A DNA stretch of 64,000 nucleotides. Source: Exiguobacterium sp. s124. GTDB lineage: Bacteria > Bacillota > Bacilli > Exiguobacteriales > Exiguobacteriaceae. Shown here piece after piece: positions 2,041-34,208 of this stretch (positions within the stretch are counted from its first letter, which is position 1; every line of letters begins with the position of its first letter). A program made the translations under genes and the position numbers. The stretch covers positions 248,001 through 312,000 of the forward strand of contig NZ_JACSKH010000001.1 in the NCBI RefSeq assembly GCF_018617485.1. The letters are read 5' to 3'. The notes under the pieces are model-generated. The model was not told the DNA's origin, made no database searches, and saw only the letters and a list, made by a program, of their open reading frames with translations.

Positions 2041-2777
2041 TGGGTCATGAGTTTCCCACATATTCTCTGAACTTTGGGGACTATACGTTATACGGGAGCT
2101 GGACGAACGTCATTACAGTGCTAATAGCAGCGTTACTCGTCTTCGTGTTCGCACTCTGGGGGACAAGACGTTTGGCTATGAAGCCGACTGGCAAACAAAA
2201 CTTCATGGAATTCTTCGCGGAGTTCGTGCGTGGAATCATCGCAAGTGCGATGGACTGGAAGACAGGAGGACGCTTTATCGGATTTGGGATGACGTTGATT
2301 TTGTTCATTCTCTTCTCAAACTTGATGGGTCTACCGTTTAACGTCATTTCCGGACACTATCTGTGGTTCAACTCACCGACGGCCGATCCTTACGTAACCT
2401 TGGCGTTGTCGACACTCGTCGTTGCAATGTCGCATTACTACGGAGTGAAGCTACACGGATTCAAGCACTATTCGGCGGAATTCGTGAAACCAGTCTGGTT
2501 CTTACTTCCGATCAAATTGATCGAGGAGTTTGCAAACACATTGACGCTCGGTTTGCGTCTATACGGTAACATTTTTGCCGGTGAAATCATGATTACCATC
2601 ATCTTGGGACTCGCGATTACAGCCGAAGGAGCACTTAACCCGCTCGGCGCAATCTTTGCGGTCTTCCCAATGATTCTATGGCAAGGTTTCTCAATCTTTA
2701 TCGGGGTTATCCAATCCTACATTTTCCTGACGCTTGCAATGGTGTACATCGGGCACAAAGCTTCGGCCGAACATTGA
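2040..2777 (+). CDS. atpB: ATP synthase Fo subunit a
   Basis: Forms the proton half-channels next to the c-ring in the membrane. The 245-residue protein has the hallmark helix LTLGLRLYGNIFAGEIM, with the essential arginine at residue 173, and about five to six membrane spans. The start overlaps the atpI stop (TAATG). A 65-base gap with an AGGAGG site separates it from atpE, fitting the high output needed for subunit c. Confidence 0.98.
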   Translation: MGHEFPTYSLNFGDYTLYGSWTNVITVLIAALLVFVFALWGTRRLAMKPTGKQNFMEFFAEFVRGIIASAMDWKTGGRFIGFGMTLILFILFSNLMGLPFNVISGHYLWFNSPTADPYVTLALSTLVVAMSHYYGVKLHGFKHYSAEFVKPVWFLLPIKLIEEFANTLTLGLRLYGNIFAGEIMITIILGLAITAEGALNPLGAIFAVFPMILWQGFSIFIGVIQSYIFLTLAMVYIGHKASAEH

Positions 2778-2821
2778 TTCGGACATCTCGCCAAAGCGTT
2801 ACAAACAAATTATTTACTTAA

Positions 2822-3064
<243 letters not shown>

Positions 3065-3135
3065 TTCCGAGTTAACGAGAATAGCATGAGAGGGAGCACG
3101 TCTCCCTCACTTATTTAGTCAAGAGGAGGGTATGC

Positions 3136-3663
3136 ATGGATACGATGATGATTGCAGCTGGTGGCGGCGGCGAAGGCCTCCGCATCCTAGATATGATCTT
3201 TACAATTTTCACATTCCTCGTACTCTTGGCCCTGTTGAAGAAATTTGCTTGGGGACCACTCCTTGGAATGATGAGACAGCGTGAAGAGTATGTAGCGAAC
3301 GAGATTGAACTCGCTGAAAAGAGCCGCAAAGATGCGGAAAACTATGTCGTCGAACAACGTGATGCACTCAGTGCGGCACGTACAGAGTCGAAAGAAATGC
3401 TCGACGCAAGCCGTCGACAAGCAGAAGCAGAACAAGCACGCTTGGTGGAGCAGGCGCGTTTGGAAGCTGAACAAATTAAAATCGAGGCAGAGAAGGCGAT
3501 TGAGCGTGAGCGCGAGCTTGCGAAACAATCACTTCAAACCGAAGTCGTCACACAGGCGCTTTCGGCAGCACGCCACGTCCTTCAATCAGACCTTAAAGGC
3601 GATGAAGCGAAACAACGTGCCCTCGTCACAGACTTCCTGTCTAAAGCGAAAGGTGCGAACTGA
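3136..3663 (+). CDS. atpF: ATP synthase Fo subunit b
   Basis: Peripheral stalk subunit of 175 residues that links the membrane sector to F1. One membrane span lies near residues 18-36, followed by a long charged coiled coil rich in Glu, Ala, Arg and Lys. An AGAGGAGGG site precedes the ATG. The stop overlaps the atpH start by one base. Confidence 0.97.
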   Translation: MDTMMIAAGGGGEGLRILDMIFTIFTFLVLLALLKKFAWGPLLGMMRQREEYVANEIELAEKSRKDAENYVVEQRDALSAARTESKEMLDASRRQAEAEQARLVEQARLEAEQIKIEAEKAIERERELAKQSLQTEVVTQALSAARHVLQSDLKGDEAKQRALVTDFLSKAKGAN

Positions 3664-4196
3664 TGAACGCATCACTAGCAAAACGCTATGCCAAAGCGCT
3701 CTTCGACTTAGCACGGGAACAAGGCACGCTCGACCAAGTCGAAGCGGAAGTGCGTCTGCTCGATGAAGTGCTCCACGCGACTCCTGAACTCATGGATCTC
3801 TTAACGAACCCTGCAGTCAGTGACAGCGAGCTTGCACAGCTTTTAAAAGACAGCTTTGGTGATATGACGGCGATTGTCGTGAACACACTTCTCGTCATGG
3901 TCGAAAACGACCGTGCGGCAGAGGTTCGCGCTTTGCCACGATACGTCCGCGACTACATCAACGACTACCGTGGGATTGCAGAGGGTATTGTCACAAGCGC
4001 CTACCCGTTGTCGGCAACAGACTTGAAAGACGTCGAACTCGTCTTCGGACAGAAGCTCGGGAAGACGCTCCAATTGAAGAACGTCGTCGATGAAGAAGTC
4101 ATCGGTGGACTCCGTGTCCAAGTCGGATACACGACGTACGATGATACGATCGAAACGAAATTGACACGCCTCGAGCGTGAATTGTTGAATGCGTAA
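3663..4196 (+). CDS. atpH: ATP synthase F1 subunit delta
   Basis: Caps the F1 head and binds the b-dimer to complete the stator. The 177 residues show the family N-terminal pattern LAKRYAKALFDLA and the C-terminal EEVIGGLRVQVG. Length and place between atpF and atpA are normal. Confidence 0.97.
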   Translation: MNASLAKRYAKALFDLAREQGTLDQVEAEVRLLDEVLHATPELMDLLTNPAVSDSELAQLLKDSFGDMTAIVVNTLLVMVENDRAAEVRALPRYVRDYINDYRGIAEGIVTSAYPLSATDLKDVELVFGQKLGKTLQLKNVVDEEVIGGLRVQVGYTTYDDTIETKLTRLERELLNA

Positions 4197-28591: not shown

Positions 28592-28623
28592 ACGTTGTCT
28601 TCATGAAACTTAGCGATTCCTTT

Positions 28624-28652
28624 ATCGTAGCTTTACAATCGTTCGCTACGAT
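28624..28652 (+). promoter_or_regulatory. Inverted repeat over the likely glpP promoter -10 region
   Basis: ATCGTAGC (28624-28631) and GCTACGAT (28645-28652) form a perfect 8-bp inverted repeat around TACAAT (28634-28639), a likely -10 box. No good -35 is visible. The repeat could be an operator or start the leader RNA. Confidence 0.4.
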
Positions 28653-28659
28653 AGGAGCT

Positions 28660-28757
28660 GTGAGACCCCCTCACTTCCAAGTGAATAATTACCGGTAGAA
28701 CCTTTGAGAGACCAACAGAAGCCCGTACGTCCATGACGTGTCGTTTCTGTTGGTCCT
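28660..28757 (+). promoter_or_regulatory. Leader with terminator upstream of glpP (probable GlpP antitermination target)
   Basis: A perfect 11-bp stem GACCAACAGAA (28710-28720) / TTCTGTTGGTC (28745-28755), with an inner ACGTC-cat-GACGT hairpin, is followed by a C and T-run ending just before the glpP ribosome site: a terminator inside the leader. Upstream, CTCAC can pair with GTGAG (28660-28674) while overlapping CACTT can pair with AAGTG (28672-28683), two exclusive folds. GlpP is known to act by antitermination on such leaders with glycerol-3-phosphate. Confidence 0.65.
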
Positions 28758-28781
28758 TTTTTTCAAGAAAGGATGATTCAA

Positions 28782-29369
28782 GTGAATGAAGCGATTGCAC
28801 GAATCGGGCAGGACCGGATGATTGCCTCGATCAAGAGTCCAAAACAAATCGAAGCGTTTTTGCAGACAGATGTGACGACGACGTTCCTCATGATGGGGAC
28901 GCTCAGCACGCTCGACCGCTATGTGGCGCATTTGAAACGAGAGAACCGAACGGTCTTCCTCCACGCCGAGCGAATCAACGGGATCAGTCTCGACCGGGAT
29001 GGCATCGATTATCTCGCCAAACGCGTAGGAGCAGACGGGATTGTCACGACGAAGGCATCGGTTCTACAGCACGCGAAACGGGCAGGGCTCTTGACGGTCC
29101 AACGCTTGTTCCTCGTCGACTCAGACGCGGTCACGAGCGGCCTCAAACTCGCAGAGGCCCAGCAACCGGATGCGATTGAACTCATGCCCGGATTGATTCC
29201 AAGTGTCGTCGAAAAGATTTCCCAGGATGTCTCGTTCCCGATTGTGACGGGTGGCATGATTCGGCAACCGATTGATGTACATCGCGCCCTCGACCATGGG
29301 GCATTCGCGGTATCGACCGGGGATGAACGACTTTGGAAAGTCCAAAGTCAGAAGGAGGAAATGGCATGA
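28782..29369 (+). CDS. glpP: Glycerol-3-phosphate-responsive antiterminator
   Basis: RNA-binding regulator of glycerol metabolism. The 195-residue barrel-like protein keeps the family blocks TVQRLFLVDS, QPDAIELMPGLIPSVVEKI, PIVTGGMIR and DVHRALDHGAFAVSTGDERLWK. I prefer the GTG at 28782, 8 bases after AGAAAGG, over ATG at 28773, which overlaps it. The stop overlaps the next start (ATGA). In Bacillus glpP heads or precedes glpFK; here it heads an ABC uptake operon and sits behind a terminator, which suggests that it controls itself and its operon. Confidence 0.92.
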   Translation: MNEAIARIGQDRMIASIKSPKQIEAFLQTDVTTTFLMMGTLSTLDRYVAHLKRENRTVFLHAERINGISLDRDGIDYLAKRVGADGIVTTKASVLQHAKRAGLLTVQRLFLVDSDAVTSGLKLAEAQQPDAIELMPGLIPSVVEKISQDVSFPIVTGGMIRQPIDVHRALDHGAFAVSTGDERLWKVQSQKEEMA

Positions 29370-30457
29370 AAACGATTCAACTACAACAACTGACGAAATC
29401 ATTCGGGGAGACGGAAGTCATTCGGGGCATCGACGTGACGATCGAAGCGGGAGAATTCTTTGCGCTCGTCGGACCGTCCGGGTGTGGCAAGAGTACGATG
29501 CTTCGCATGATCGCCGGGCTCGAATCGATCACGAGCGGAACACTTCGCATCGACGGGGTGGCGGCAAACGGGATGAAGCCGAGCGAGCGTCACTTATCGA
29601 TGGTCTTCCAAAACTATGCGCTCTATCCACATATGACGGTCGAGAAAAATATCACGTTCGGATTACATACGAAAGGACTGACGAAATTGGAGCAGCGAGA
29701 GCGTTGCCTCATGGCGGCCGACACGCTCGGACTTACCGATTATTTGAAACGGAAGCCGCGTGAACTCTCAGGTGGTCAAAGACAACGCGTCGCCTTGGCA
29801 CGCGCTATCGTGACCGAGGCACCGATTTGCCTCATGGATGAGCCGCTCTCGAACTTAGACGCAAAACTACGGGCGAAGATGCGATCGGAGATTCGTCAGT
29901 TGCAGCGGAAACTCGGGCTGACAATGATTTACGTCACACATGACCAAGTCGAGGCGATGACGATGGCGGACCGCATCATGCTTCTCAACGAAGGGGAAGT
30001 ACAACAAGTCGGGAAACCGCTCGACCTGTACAACAAGCCGGCGAACACGTTCGTCGCCTCATTCATCGGGTCGCCTCCGATGAACTTAGCCGAAGTCACA
30101 CGACAAGAAAAAGGGTGGATGGCGTCGGACGGACGCATGTTTCATCCGAACGCGATGACAGACGTTTCAGCGGCAACACTTGGCGTCCGTCCAGAACAAA
30201 TCAAACCGGCAAATGAGGACGTGACGTTTTATGCGGAGTTGAAGAACATCGAAGTACTCGGGACCGAGACGATTCTCGCATTCGATGTCGGTGGGAATGA
30301 ATGGCTAGCCAAGTGGCCGGGACAATGGCCACTCAACGTCGGCGAAAAAGTGGCGTGCTACGTGGAACCGAAACAGATGTCGCTATTCGATGCGGATGGG
30401 CAACGCATCGAGCCGAAGCACCCGAAACTGTTTGAGGCGCTGGAGGTGTTCCAATGA
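29366..30457 (+). CDS. ugpC: ABC transporter ATPase for glycerol-3-phosphate/glycerophosphodiesters (UgpC-like)
   Basis: Energy-coupling ATPase of 363 residues in the MalK/UgpC group. The start at 29366 overlaps the glpP stop; a longer reading frame to 29333 would overlap glpP more. Walker A is GPSGCGKST (36-44), followed by the Q-loop, the signature ELSGGQRQRVALARAI, Walker B and the D-loop. A C-terminal TOBE-type regulatory domain fills the last 130 residues. The partner genes follow with ATGA overlaps. Substrate is inferred from glpP and UgpB-like neighbours. Confidence 0.9.
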   Translation: MKTIQLQQLTKSFGETEVIRGIDVTIEAGEFFALVGPSGCGKSTMLRMIAGLESITSGTLRIDGVAANGMKPSERHLSMVFQNYALYPHMTVEKNITFGLHTKGLTKLEQRERCLMAADTLGLTDYLKRKPRELSGGQRQRVALARAIVTEAPICLMDEPLSNLDAKLRAKMRSEIRQLQRKLGLTMIYVTHDQVEAMTMADRIMLLNEGEVQQVGKPLDLYNKPANTFVASFIGSPPMNLAEVTRQEKGWMASDGRMFHPNAMTDVSAATLGVRPEQIKPANEDVTFYAELKNIEVLGTETILAFDVGGNEWLAKWPGQWPLNVGEKVACYVEPKQMSLFDADGQRIEPKHPKLFEALEVFQ

Positions 30458-31359
30458 CGATCGCCTTACCGAGGGAGAAAGTCCGCGCGAGACTGTCGGA
30501 CGCGGCGAGTGGACTGTTGTACTTGTCCCCGTCGATCATCTTGTTTGGTGTCTTTCTCGTCTATCCACTCCTCCGGACGATGTATTTAAGCTTCTTTCGA
30601 ACGGATACACAAGGAACGCCACTTGAATTTGTCGGAATCGGTCATTACAGCAACCTGTTCACGAGCGTGGCGTTTTGGCAAAGCATCCAAGCGACCGTGG
30701 GGTTCGTCCTGTTGACCGTTCCACTCACGATTCTCATCGCGCTCGGTCTCGCATTACTCGCCAATGAAAAATTGAAAGGCATCGGCATCTTCCGTACGGC
30801 GTTCTCGGCGACGATGGGGATGAGTGTCGCCGCGTCATCGGTCATCTGGATGTTCATCTACAACCCGTCGATCGGGATTTTCAACCGCTTCCTCGAAGCG
30901 ATTGGTGCTAGCGGCGTACAGTGGCTCCTCGACCCGCAATATGCGCTCCTTTCCGTGTCGCTCGCGACCGTCTGGATGAATATCGGCTTCACGTTTTTGA
31001 TTCTCCTCGGCGGTCTGCAAAACATCGACCGGACGCTATACGAGAGTGCGGACATCGCGGGGACGAGTTACTGGACGCAACTTCGTGCCATCACGATTCC
31101 GATGTTGTCCCCGACGCTCTTCTTCGTCGGCATCATCTCGCTCATCAACGCCTTCCAGACGTTCGGGCAGATTGACTTGTTGACGAAAGGCGGACCGACG
31201 AATGCGACGAACGTCATCGTCTATGCGATCTATAAAGACGCGTTCATCAACTACAACGTCGGAAGTGCCAGTGCACAAGCGGTGCTCTTATTCATCGCCG
31301 TCCTTCTGTTGACATGGCTTCAGTTCAAACTGGTCGAAAGGAAGGTGCATTACCAATGA
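30454..31359 (+). CDS. ugpA: ABC transporter permease (UgpA-like)
   Basis: 301-residue inner permease subunit of the MalF/UgpA type with about six membrane spans. The coupling-helix EAA motif reads ESADIAGTSYWTQLRAITIPMLSP. The start overlaps the ATPase stop (ATGA), and the stop overlaps the next permease. Confidence 0.9.
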   Translation: MTIALPREKVRARLSDAASGLLYLSPSIILFGVFLVYPLLRTMYLSFFRTDTQGTPLEFVGIGHYSNLFTSVAFWQSIQATVGFVLLTVPLTILIALGLALLANEKLKGIGIFRTAFSATMGMSVAASSVIWMFIYNPSIGIFNRFLEAIGASGVQWLLDPQYALLSVSLATVWMNIGFTFLILLGGLQNIDRTLYESADIAGTSYWTQLRAITIPMLSPTLFFVGIISLINAFQTFGQIDLLTKGGPTNATNVIVYAIYKDAFINYNVGSASAQAVLLFIAVLLLTWLQFKLVERKVHYQ

Positions 31360-32165
31360 GATTACGGAATGTAGGCGTGTATGTGCTTCTCGTCTTGAGC
31401 GCCGTCGTCATGCTGTTTCCAATCGCGTATGCGTTCTCGATCAGTCTGATGGACGGGAAGGAAGTACTCCAAGGGCATTTGCTCCCACGCGACCCATCCT
31501 TTGAGAATTACGTGGGCGCGTTCGAACGAATTCCGATGATGACCTACTTAGTAAACAGTTTGATTGTCGCACTCCTCGTGATGGTCGGGCAGGTCGTCTT
31601 GTCGAGTCTTGCGGCATTCGCGTTCGTCTTCATCGACTTCAAAGGAAAAGGGCTCATCTTTATGCTTTTCCTCGCGACGATGATGGTGCCGTGGGAAGCG
31701 ACGATGGTGCCGAACTTTTTGACGATCCAGTCGCTCGGCTGGCTCAACACCGTCTGGGGACTATCGGTGCCGTTCTTCGCACTCGCGTTCGGGACGTTTC
31801 TACTCCGGCAACAGTTCAAGACGATTCCATATGAAATGTATGAGGCATCACAAATCGCTGGGATCAGCCGGTTCCGCTTCTTCTGGAACGTTGTGATGCC
31901 GGTCTCGAAGACACCGCTCGTCACGTTGTCGGTATATAGCTTTTTGACGACTTGGAATATGTACTTATGGCCGCTTCTCGTCACGAATACGGAACAGGCG
32001 CGGACGGTCCAAATCGGGATTAAACAGATGCAGTCGAACGAGGTCGCCTCGGACTGGGGCGTCGTCATGGCAGCCGTCATCTTGATCATCATTCCGACAC
32101 TTTTATTGTTATTCGCAGGGCAAAAACATCTACAAGAAGGATTGACGCAGGGCGCGATCAAATAA
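31356..32165 (+). CDS. ugpE: ABC transporter permease (UgpE-like)
   Basis: 269-residue permease of the MalG/UgpE type, six spans, EAA loop EASQIAGISRFRFFWNVVMPVSKTP. I use the ATG at 31356, which forms ATGA with the ugpA stop and has AAAGGAAGG upstream; an earlier in-frame start lies deep in ugpA. Confidence 0.9.
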   Translation: MRLRNVGVYVLLVLSAVVMLFPIAYAFSISLMDGKEVLQGHLLPRDPSFENYVGAFERIPMMTYLVNSLIVALLVMVGQVVLSSLAAFAFVFIDFKGKGLIFMLFLATMMVPWEATMVPNFLTIQSLGWLNTVWGLSVPFFALAFGTFLLRQQFKTIPYEMYEASQIAGISRFRFFWNVVMPVSKTPLVTLSVYSFLTTWNMYLWPLLVTNTEQARTVQIGIKQMQSNEVASDWGVVMAAVILIIIPTLLLLFAGQKHLQEGLTQGAIK

Positions 32166-32181
32166 TAGGGGGACATGACAA

Positions 32182-33489
32182 ATGAAAAAGTTTGGATTAT
32201 TCGCAGGGTTGGCAAGTTCGGTATTATTACTCGGGGCATGTGGAAGTGAAGAAGCGGCACCGGTCGCGGCAACGACGGAAGACGGAAAGACAGAAGTCGT
32301 CTTTTGGCACGCGATGAGCGGCGACTTGGAAACGGCGCTCAACACGCAGGTCGACGCGTTCAACGCGTCGCAAGACGACTATGAAGTGAAGCCGGTTTTC
32401 CAGGGGACGTACGAGGAAGCACTCACGAAGTTCAACGCGGTCGCCGGTTCGGAAGACGCGCCTGCCATCATGCAGACGTTCGAGGTCGGGACGAAATACA
32501 TGATTGACTCAAATAAAATCACGCCGGTCCAAGAGTTCATCGACAAAGAGAATTTTGACACGAGCGTATGGGAAGAGAATATCTTGAGCTATTACCAAGT
32601 GGATGGGAAGCAATACTCGATGCCGTTCAACTCCTCGACACCAGTCCTCATCTACAACAAAGATGCGTTCAAAGAAGCGGGGCTCGACCCGGAGAAGGCA
32701 CCGCGCACGTATGACGAGTTGAAAGAGGCGGCGAAGAAATTGACGACGGACGACCAGACCGGATTCACGATGCTCAACTATGGCTGGTTCTTCGAACAGC
32801 TCGTCGCTGCGCAAGGTGGGCTATACGTCGATAATGACAACGGACGAAGTGGTAATCCGACGAAAGCCGTATTCGATGGAGAAGAAGGACAGAACGCCTT
32901 CAACTTGATCAAAGAGATGTACGATGAGGAGACGTTCCTGAACGTCGGTCAAAACTGGGATGACATGCATGCGGCGTTCCAATCTGGAAAAGTCGCGATG
33001 TATCTGGACTCGTCGGCCGGTATCCGTACCGTCGCAGACAATGCAGACTTTGAGATCGGTGCCTCATACTTGCCGGTACCGAACGAAGCAGACCGTCAAG
33101 GCGTCGTCATCGGTGGCGCATCACTCTGGATGGGTGATGGTATCGCTGAAGAGACGAAAGAAGGCGCATGGGAGTTCATGAAATACGTGTCATCGACAGA
33201 AACGCAAGCGCAATGGCATGTCGATACAGGCTACTTCGCCATCAACCCTGACGCTTACAATGAGCCGATTGTCGAAGAAATGTGGGTGACATATCCACAG
33301 CTCAAAGTGACGGTCGACCAATTGAGTGAGACGAAACCTTCACCGGCGACACAAGGAGCGCTCATCTCGACATTCCCACAATCTCGCCTTAGTGTTGCTA
33401 ATGCAATCGAGAGTTTGTATCAAGGTGTTTCAGCCGAAGACGCATTGAAGCGTGCGGCAGAAGAGACGACCACGACGTTGGTACAGTGA
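32182..33489 (+). CDS. ugpB: Solute-binding lipoprotein (UgpB-like)
   Basis: Extracellular binding protein of 435 residues anchored by a lipid (lipobox LLGAC, Cys20). The mature part matches UgpB by pattern: VVFWHAMSGDLETALNTQVDAFNASQ, then VFQGTYEEALTKF, APAIMQTFEVGTKYM, and IVQ-type middle with MPFNSSTPVLIYNKDAFKEAGLDP. Expected ligands are glycerol-3-phosphate or glycerophosphocholine-like diesters. It lies 16 bases after ugpE with its own GGGGGAC-type ribosome site. Confidence 0.9.
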   Translation: MKKFGLFAGLASSVLLLGACGSEEAAPVAATTEDGKTEVVFWHAMSGDLETALNTQVDAFNASQDDYEVKPVFQGTYEEALTKFNAVAGSEDAPAIMQTFEVGTKYMIDSNKITPVQEFIDKENFDTSVWEENILSYYQVDGKQYSMPFNSSTPVLIYNKDAFKEAGLDPEKAPRTYDELKEAAKKLTTDDQTGFTMLNYGWFFEQLVAAQGGLYVDNDNGRSGNPTKAVFDGEEGQNAFNLIKEMYDEETFLNVGQNWDDMHAAFQSGKVAMYLDSSAGIRTVADNADFEIGASYLPVPNEADRQGVVIGGASLWMGDGIAEETKEGAWEFMKYVSSTETQAQWHVDTGYFAINPDAYNEPIVEEMWVTYPQLKVTVDQLSETKPSPATQGALISTFPQSRLSVANAIESLYQGVSAEDALKRAAEETTTTLVQ

Positions 33490-33490
33490 T

Positions 33491-34192
33491 ATGATGATTT
33501 TTGCACATCGCGGCTATAGCGCCAAGTATCCAGAAAATACATTGACTGCCTTTAAATCGGCTCTTCCTTTTGTGGATGGGATTGAACTGGACGTCCACTT
33601 GTCGAAAGACGGACGACTCATGGTCATTCATGATGAGACGGTCGACCGCACAACGAACGGAACAGGATGGGTGAAAGATATGACCATCCACGAACTACGT
33701 CAATTGAGGATTAAAGGGTATGAACGGATTCCGACGTTAGAAGAAGTATTTGCCTTGATTAAGCGAAACGACGCTACACTGAACGTCGAATTGAAGACAG
33801 ATCAATACGCGTATCCAGGCATTGAGCGACTTGCCTTGGAGGCTGTCGATGAGTTTCAGTTGACTGCCCGAGTCGTCTTCTCTTCGTTCAATCGGGAAAC
33901 GCTCATTCGGATTCGGGACATCTCTCCGACCGCACGTCTCGCAGTCTTGACGCAGGAAGGTGATTCCGACATTGTCTCATTTGCTGAAACGATTCGAGCC
34001 GAAGCGATTCATGCTCAGGCTGCATTCGTTGGTTCAACAGCGTGGGAGGAGATGGGACGAACGACCATGCAGACACGACTCTACACCATTAACAACGTGC
34101 AGGATGTTCCAGAAGTACCTGTGGCAGCTATCATGACAGATGAGGTCGAACGATTCGCGAAACAAGTATACAACAACCCCGTTTTCATATGA
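33491..34192 (+). CDS. glpQ: Glycerophosphodiester phosphodiesterase
   Basis: Hydrolyses glycerophosphodiesters to glycerol-3-phosphate and an alcohol. The 233-residue protein has the GDPD catalytic set: HRG (H6), IELDVHLSKDG (E32, D34) and VIHDE (H47). No signal peptide, so it acts in the cytoplasm after import, like UgpQ. Its start is one base after the ugpB stop with no evident ribosome site, so translation is probably coupled. The symbol could equally be ugpQ. Confidence 0.92.
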   Translation: MMIFAHRGYSAKYPENTLTAFKSALPFVDGIELDVHLSKDGRLMVIHDETVDRTTNGTGWVKDMTIHELRQLRIKGYERIPTLEEVFALIKRNDATLNVELKTDQYAYPGIERLALEAVDEFQLTARVVFSSFNRETLIRIRDISPTARLAVLTQEGDSDIVSFAETIRAEAIHAQAAFVGSTAWEEMGRTTMQTRLYTINNVQDVPEVPVAAIMTDEVERFAKQVYNNPVFI

Positions 34193-34208
34193 GAAAACGG
34201 GGTTGTTT
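34174..34208. terminator. Terminator of the glpP-ugp operon
   Basis: Perfect 13-bp stem CAACCCCGTTTTC / GAAAACGGGGTTG with a 6-base loop between two converging genes; T-run short. Confidence 0.88.

Follow-up and report, generated by a model that had tools for sequence, protein, structure and literature searches.

Putative serial control of a glycerophosphodiester uptake operon by a PhoP-type promoter box and a GlpP-type antiterminator leader in Exiguobacterium sp. s124

The closest described systems to the operon considered here are the GlpP targets of Bacillus subtilis (glpD, glpFK and glpTQ), which likewise combine a GlpP-family protein with a conditional-terminator leader and of which glpD is described as a tested target (PMC9604022), and the Escherichia coli ugpBAECQ operon, which comprises the same type of transporter plus a cytoplasmic-type glycerophosphodiester phosphodiesterase (GDPD) and is reported to be controlled by both phosphate and carbon from two promoters through PhoB and cyclic AMP-CRP (PMC4415409). 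The locus analysed in this study lies within a 64,000-nucleotide stretch of Exiguobacterium sp. s124 (contig NZ_JACSKH010000001.1, positions 248,001 to 312,000), hereafter the window, where a promoter and leader precede the genes glpP2, ugpC, ugpA, ugpE, ugpB and a GDPD gene (Table 1). By way of contrast with the B. subtilis targets, it is a ugp ABC transporter operon headed by its own glpP, in a genome with two GlpP paralogues and a glpFK locus that shows no such leader; and, unlike its E. coli counterpart, it appears to rely on a single promoter bearing a PhoP-type box, with a GlpP-type antiterminator leader after it. In B. subtilis these two regulators are likewise reported to act on one scavenging unit, glpQ under PhoP-PhoR (PMC4744853) and glpT and glpQ under GlpP (PMC9604022), a precedent that lowers the novelty of dual control, although glpTQ differs in its transporter and has glpP outside the unit. 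The LicT/SacY-type ribonucleic antiterminator (RAT) elements also deploy a short hairpin with a 3' arm that overlaps the left arm of a terminator (for LicT, PMC7430163), and differ from the GlpP motif in protein family, sequence and signal.

Comparison with related loci suggested that this operon probably scavenges phosphate and is controlled at two successive points, namely a PhoP-dependent start of transcription and then read-through dependent on GlpP2 and glycerol-3-phosphate. The first-pass annotation, made from the window alone, had proposed a leader controlled by GlpP and an operon that thereby controls itself. The position of glpP behind a GlpP-type leader does make the wiring autoregulatory, and both that wiring and the conditional-terminator anatomy were supported by comparison; the proposal fell short in that GlpP2 is not the sole GlpP of the genome and in that a candidate phosphate input was overlooked.

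The intrinsic terminator identified by folding and conservation lies between the promoter and the first gene, and had been correctly placed immediately 5' of glpP. The segment 28690-28765 has a folding energy of -29.1 kcal/mol (z -5.3), a value equalled by 0 of 200 shuffles, and both arms of the lower terminator stem are near-invariant in 18/18 related leaders of the genus, as is the segment GGTAGAAC-TT-GAGAGACCAACAGAAG in all 18. Since the U tract is followed by glpP after 9 or 18 bases, according to the start chosen, a separate promoter would not fit, and one between the terminator and glpP was ruled out on that ground. Simple promoter and terminator scans detected sites in the region no more numerous than in shuffles, and thus add nothing. 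Overlapping the terminator is a GlpP-type RNA motif, kept in 18/18, which a joint model (R2, trained on both kinds of leader described below) matched in the window at 36.5 bits (E 2.2e-6), as is to be expected because sequence of this kind was in its training set. Searches against Rfam 15 at gathering score returned no family in the window and none in 17 leader-bearing loci. A small hairpin (GTGAG...CTCAC, 28660-28674) was also evident in this species close to where the leader presumably begins; other Exiguobacterium genomes have imperfect versions of it.

The same RNA element recurred in two sets of leaders. Those of ugp operons read ACAAGU(G/A)NAUA, about 5-20 bases, GGUUGGAG, a few bases and then GGAGAAACC; those of glpD read AAGUUAAUA followed by GGUUGGAG...GGAGAGACC, the motif being present in 26 of the 29 glpD leaders of the surveyed genomes, with the B. 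subtilis glpD leader itself lying outside the comparison. Common to both is AAGU followed by a short GGUU/AACC stem around a purine-rich loop, with moderate covariation. Because AACC is at once the 3' arm of this stem and the base of the left arm of the terminator, the short hairpin and the terminator exclude each other.

An alignment (A5) of 48 of the 55 motif sequences, from which the near-copies L114, L133, L021, L148, L151, L154 and L172 were left out, was used to assess this stem. Its four pairs formed in 78.6% of cells, a level reached by 4/500 shuffles and falling to 32-60% when the arms were slid by 1-3 columns; the covariation score of 0.214 was reached by 5/500 shuffles, and the 11 cells changed on both sides by 11/500. 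The alignment is sequence-based and misregisters rows such as L168 and L171 (GCUGU/ACAGC) and L163 (GUCU/AGAC), each of which pairs well in a shifted register, and a register-free test gave best-helix scores that averaged 5.01, compared with 4.02 for 300 shuffles (sd 0.14, maximum 4.49). Several results count against the proposed stem: two of the five covariation measures did not rise above shuffles (pairs changed on both sides, 130/500; further pair types, 335/500), the top helix of the register-free test differed from the proposed stem in about ten sequences, and in Exiguobacterium the stem is limited to 3 pairs, as compared with 4-5 in other families. A role for the leader as no more than an attenuator or 5' stabiliser, its likeness to glpD leaders being ancestral only, is highly improbable despite a report that B. 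subtilis GlpP also affects the stability of glpD mRNA (PMC7430163), given that the unpaired AAGUGAAUA and the loop are conserved across families, that ACC has an alternative pairing, and that the leader was lost together with GlpP2 in the genome described below.

Loci of this type extend well beyond the genus. Some GlpP match was detected in 182 of 250 genomes of a class-level sample, and ugpC lay just downstream of a GlpP2-like gene in 16 of the 18 best loci outside Exiguobacterium. Larger stretches were retrieved for 40 of these matches, being the best of those listed with some near-copies left out; ugpC, ugpA and ugpE were all present in 25, of which 23, drawn from five Bacilli families besides that of the window, carried the leader motif before glpP. 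In a tree of 49 GlpP sequences, the 27 from ugp operons plus five others fell on one branch (support 95/91), a result accompanied by long-branch warnings and by a group test that set aside 17 rows. The gene directly 3' of glpP2 encoded a HAD-family phosphatase in each of the four loci scanned (L105, L106, L130 and L108), which fits phosphate scavenging and is perhaps a glycerol-3-phosphate phosphatase freeing phosphate; the corresponding product was a PAP2 protein in L129 and an MgtC protein in L134. Weak GlpP-type motifs (15.7-18.9 bits) were also observed 3' of glpP, at 1487-1526 in L141 and 1494-1532 in L142, where glpP comes first and the motif lies before ugpB, and at 1394-1427 in L134, where it precedes the MgtC gene; weak as they are, these motifs may represent a layout that is not autoregulated.

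The first-pass annotation had noted, correctly, that the window holds no glpF, glpK or glpD: glpK lies at C1:626132, within a glpFK locus at about C1:626 kb, and glpD at C1:222288. Its further remark that the only visible target of GlpP was the operon itself is true of the window and fails for the genome, where a leader with the same motif precedes glpD; with this glpD leader found in 19/19 genomes of the genus, the window operon was rejected as sole GlpP target. A search for leader copies before the glp genes, as the annotation had suggested, thus succeeded for glpD and found none for glpFK, no such leader being seen in the sequence upstream of glpFK in this genome and no R2 match being returned there (locus L037) at E up to 1. 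Upstream of glpF that locus seems, on reading by eye, to hold a cre-like site and a promoter. A model built from ugp leaders only (R1) reached the glpD leaders weakly, in 3 of 19 genus genomes (E about 0.2). Across the genus the joint model R2 gave 37 matches at E <= 0.0011, consisting of the glpD leader in 19/19 genomes, with adjacency to glpD checked in all 19, and the glpP2 leader in 18/19; six further matches (E 0.26-0.92) occurred in five genomes, and as the best 150 of 570-850 candidates per genome were scored, weak further elements could be missed.

A second, unlinked glpP (GlpP1) is located at C1:1157381, outside any glp operon, and its product is about 30% identical to GlpP2. It was present in 19/19 genus genomes and GlpP2 in 18/19, and the leader and UgpB were both found in the same 18, so that GlpP2, leader and UgpB occurred together in the comparison with related genomes. 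None of 19 genomes of the sister genus contained UgpB, and each of the nine searched for GlpP gave a single match (E about 1e-24 to 1e-26) that scored below GlpP2. The exception within the genus, G002, has neither GlpP2 nor UgpB, and retains GlpP1 and the glpD leader. Its ugp-type leader is altered but recognisable to R1 (79.7 bits), whereas R2, with matches accepted up to E 1, recovered the glpD leader and missed this one; the leader is followed by a short frame that weakly resembles the C-terminus of GlpP2 (E 0.044), a possible glpP2 stub, and by a lone intact ugpC frame, divergent at 44% identity, the other ugp genes giving no convincing match in the 10-kb stretch. We read this one case as decay of the operon after loss of GlpP2. 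Among named relatives of GlpP2, 13 of 14 loci were from Exiguobacterium; the fourteenth, 82% identical, lies on a contig of 3.4 kb that bears the label Bacillus sp. P14.5, and is probably Exiguobacterium contamination in that assembly.

The leaders of the two systems differ in the base following AAGU. This base was G or A in 41/41 ugp leaders (13 G and 10 A among the 23 outside the genus, G in 18/18 within it), and U in 26/26 motif-bearing glpD leaders, there being no core in L169, L170 and L173 of the 29 loci. When counted with the base left free, the glpD figures were U 25, A 1 and no core 3 of 29; the lone A, in L166, came from upstream coding sequence, and the real motif of that locus has U. 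At the protein level, position 66 (numbered as in the GlpP2 of the window) was E in 30 of 32 rows of the ugp clade and D in 15 of 16 others, with the divergent L144 left out. We suggest as a hypothesis that these differences insulate the two GlpP systems from each other. GlpP1 most likely serves the glpD leader.

The same observations bear on a rival scheme, in which a canonical GlpP1 reads both leaders and GlpP2 has diverged towards a different role or ligand, such as some other phosphoester. Such a scheme would accommodate the occurrence of one motif in both leaders, the departure of GlpP2 from the other GlpPs at the conserved position 66, and the presence of GlpP1 throughout the genus, and GlpP1 could indeed act on the ugp leader as well, a point that tells against the preferred scheme. 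We nevertheless consider it unlikely, because GlpP2 accompanies every one of the 18 intact leaders and is missing where the leader decays, even though GlpP1 and the glpD leader remain there; because the two sets of leaders do not share the base that follows AAGU; and because each of 21 residues is conserved in 94% or more of the 49 GlpPs, both kinds included.

Upstream of the leader, four repeats with spacings of 10, 11 and 11 bases precede a putative -10 element which begins 9 bases past the last of them. Together they suggest that the operon, in a manner overlooked in the first-pass annotation, is under phosphate control too. The PhoP consensus is given as TT(A/T/C)ACA-N4-6-TT(A/T/C)ACA (PMC12404567), and the pstS promoter of this genome contains five such words at 11-bp steps. 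The arrangement TTTACA-N9-TACGAT is present in 17/18 promoters of the genus, with TACAAT in the remaining one, and the repeat register, in a relaxed form of the repeat, is kept in 18/18. With flexible spacing (one gap of 10 or 12), 3 of 127,910 positions in the window score as high, the box itself included. When a three-repeat score was compared with 300 dinucleotide shuffles of each promoter (p < 0.05), the box was significant in 27/30 ugp promoters, comprising 20/23 outside the genus and 7/7 of those tested among the 18 within it, as compared with 1/25 glpD promoters (of 29 loci).

A number of points weaken the case for a PhoP site. The box in the window is itself weak (TTAGCG, TTTATC), three of its four repeats deviating from the consensus in its strict form, and with rigid 11-bp spacing it is equalled at 50 of 127,922 window positions. 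Outside the genus the best register in 9/23 ugp promoters did not keep the usual distance of 22-23 bases from the leader but lay closer or farther away, the ugp promoters of L130, L131 and L135 had no significant box, and the score was composed after several of these promoters had been viewed. An ordinary sigma-A promoter, with GlpP antitermination as the annotation described and repeats that are no PhoP site, would explain the weakness of the window repeats and their frequency under rigid spacing, TT..A. words being common in low-G+C promoters. It appears improbable in view of the disparity between ugp and glpD promoters against a dinucleotide-shuffle null, the register kept across the genus, and the recurrence of the same kind of repeat before pstS.

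The preferred scheme of serial control would operate as follows. When phosphate is scarce, phosphorylated PhoP would bind the repeats and RNA polymerase would start just past TACGAT, as the promoter anatomy suggests. The leader could then form either the short hairpin (GGU/ACC here) or the terminator, both of which require the same ACC. GlpP2 with glycerol-3-phosphate would hold the short hairpin so that the terminator base next to the U tract cannot form, whereupon, judging by the conserved architecture of the leader and by membership of the GlpP family, polymerase would read into glpP2-ugpCAEB-GDPD. The Ugp transporter would import glycerophosphodiesters or glycerol-3-phosphate, and GDPD would release glycerol-3-phosphate; more glycerol-3-phosphate and more GlpP2 would amount to positive feedback gated by phosphate, for which basal read-through or GlpP1 could supply the start.

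A broader proposal, which we advance tentatively as falling a little short of an even chance, is that GlpP antitermination works in general through the present hairpin, which would then be an RNA family that Rfam 15 lacks; that two parallel GlpP-RNA switches in Bacilli are told apart by one leader base together with protein changes such as D66E; and that the ugp switch, lying behind a PhoP box, computes 'phosphate scarce AND glycerol-phosphate present' with its sensor within its own output. The parts are of known kinds; their combination, and an RNA switch common to many related bacteria, are without a description that we could find. None of the titles and abstracts retrieved concerned control of this operon, and the antiterminator fold may be in print in subscription journals. 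GlpP is one of few antiterminators that directly sense a metabolite. The comparison offers a concrete candidate, with an alternative pairing and some covariation, for the fold on which it acts, and that fold is absent from Rfam 15. A single leader base would separate two paralogous systems that share a cell, and seldom can the question of specificity among paralogous RNA-binding regulators be put in such simple terms; the two-input design for phosphate scavenging is, moreover, testable with ordinary reporters.

Table 1. Coordinates of the features discussed (window positions unless another locus is named)
Feature	Coordinates	Strand	Remarks
PhoP-type box	28600..28637	+	TTCATG 28600-28605, TTAGCG 28610-28615, TTTATC 28621-28626, TTTACA 28632-28637; putative
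Putative -10 TACGAT	28647..28652	+
GlpP-type RNA motif of leader	28677..28717	+
Putative antiterminator stem	28694..28713	+	GGU 28694-28696 with ACC 28711-28713; ACC also in terminator left arm
Intrinsic terminator	stem 28706-28758, U tract 28757-28763	+
glpP2, GlpP-family antiterminator	28773..29369	+	probable start GTG 28782; AAAGG at 28768-28772
ugpC, ATPase	29366..30457	+	NCBIfam NF008653, 441 bits against a cut-off of 432: passed
ugpA, permease	30454..31359	+	UgpA the top curated model, score under cut-off
ugpE, permease	31356..32165	+	UgpE the top curated model, score under cut-off
ugpB, substrate-binding lipoprotein	32182..33489	+	Ugp model the top curated model, score under cut-off
GDPD phosphodiesterase	33491..34192	+	PF03009, E 1e-36
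Inverted repeat over GDPD stop, likely operon terminator	34172..34205	+	read by eye
Decayed unit of G002	L070 about 2270-3740	reverse	altered leader, possible glpP2 stub, ugpC

The genes are arranged as the first-pass annotation had described, glpP, ugpC, ugpA and ugpE being joined by ATGA overlaps (29366-29369, 30454-30457 and 31356-31359) and followed by ugpB and the GDPD gene. With regard to the start of glpP2, four alignments within the genus begin only at residue 3. Its product matched PF04309 (G3P_antiterm) over positions 1-173 of 173 (E 7e-58; 195 bits against a cut-off of 27) and has relatives of known structure in 3kts and 1vkf. Reading of the GDPD by eye revealed no obvious signal peptide. 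Domain assignments were clear for GlpP, the ABC components and GDPD, and the top solved relative of UgpB was E. coli UgpB (4aq4, E 1.4e-62).

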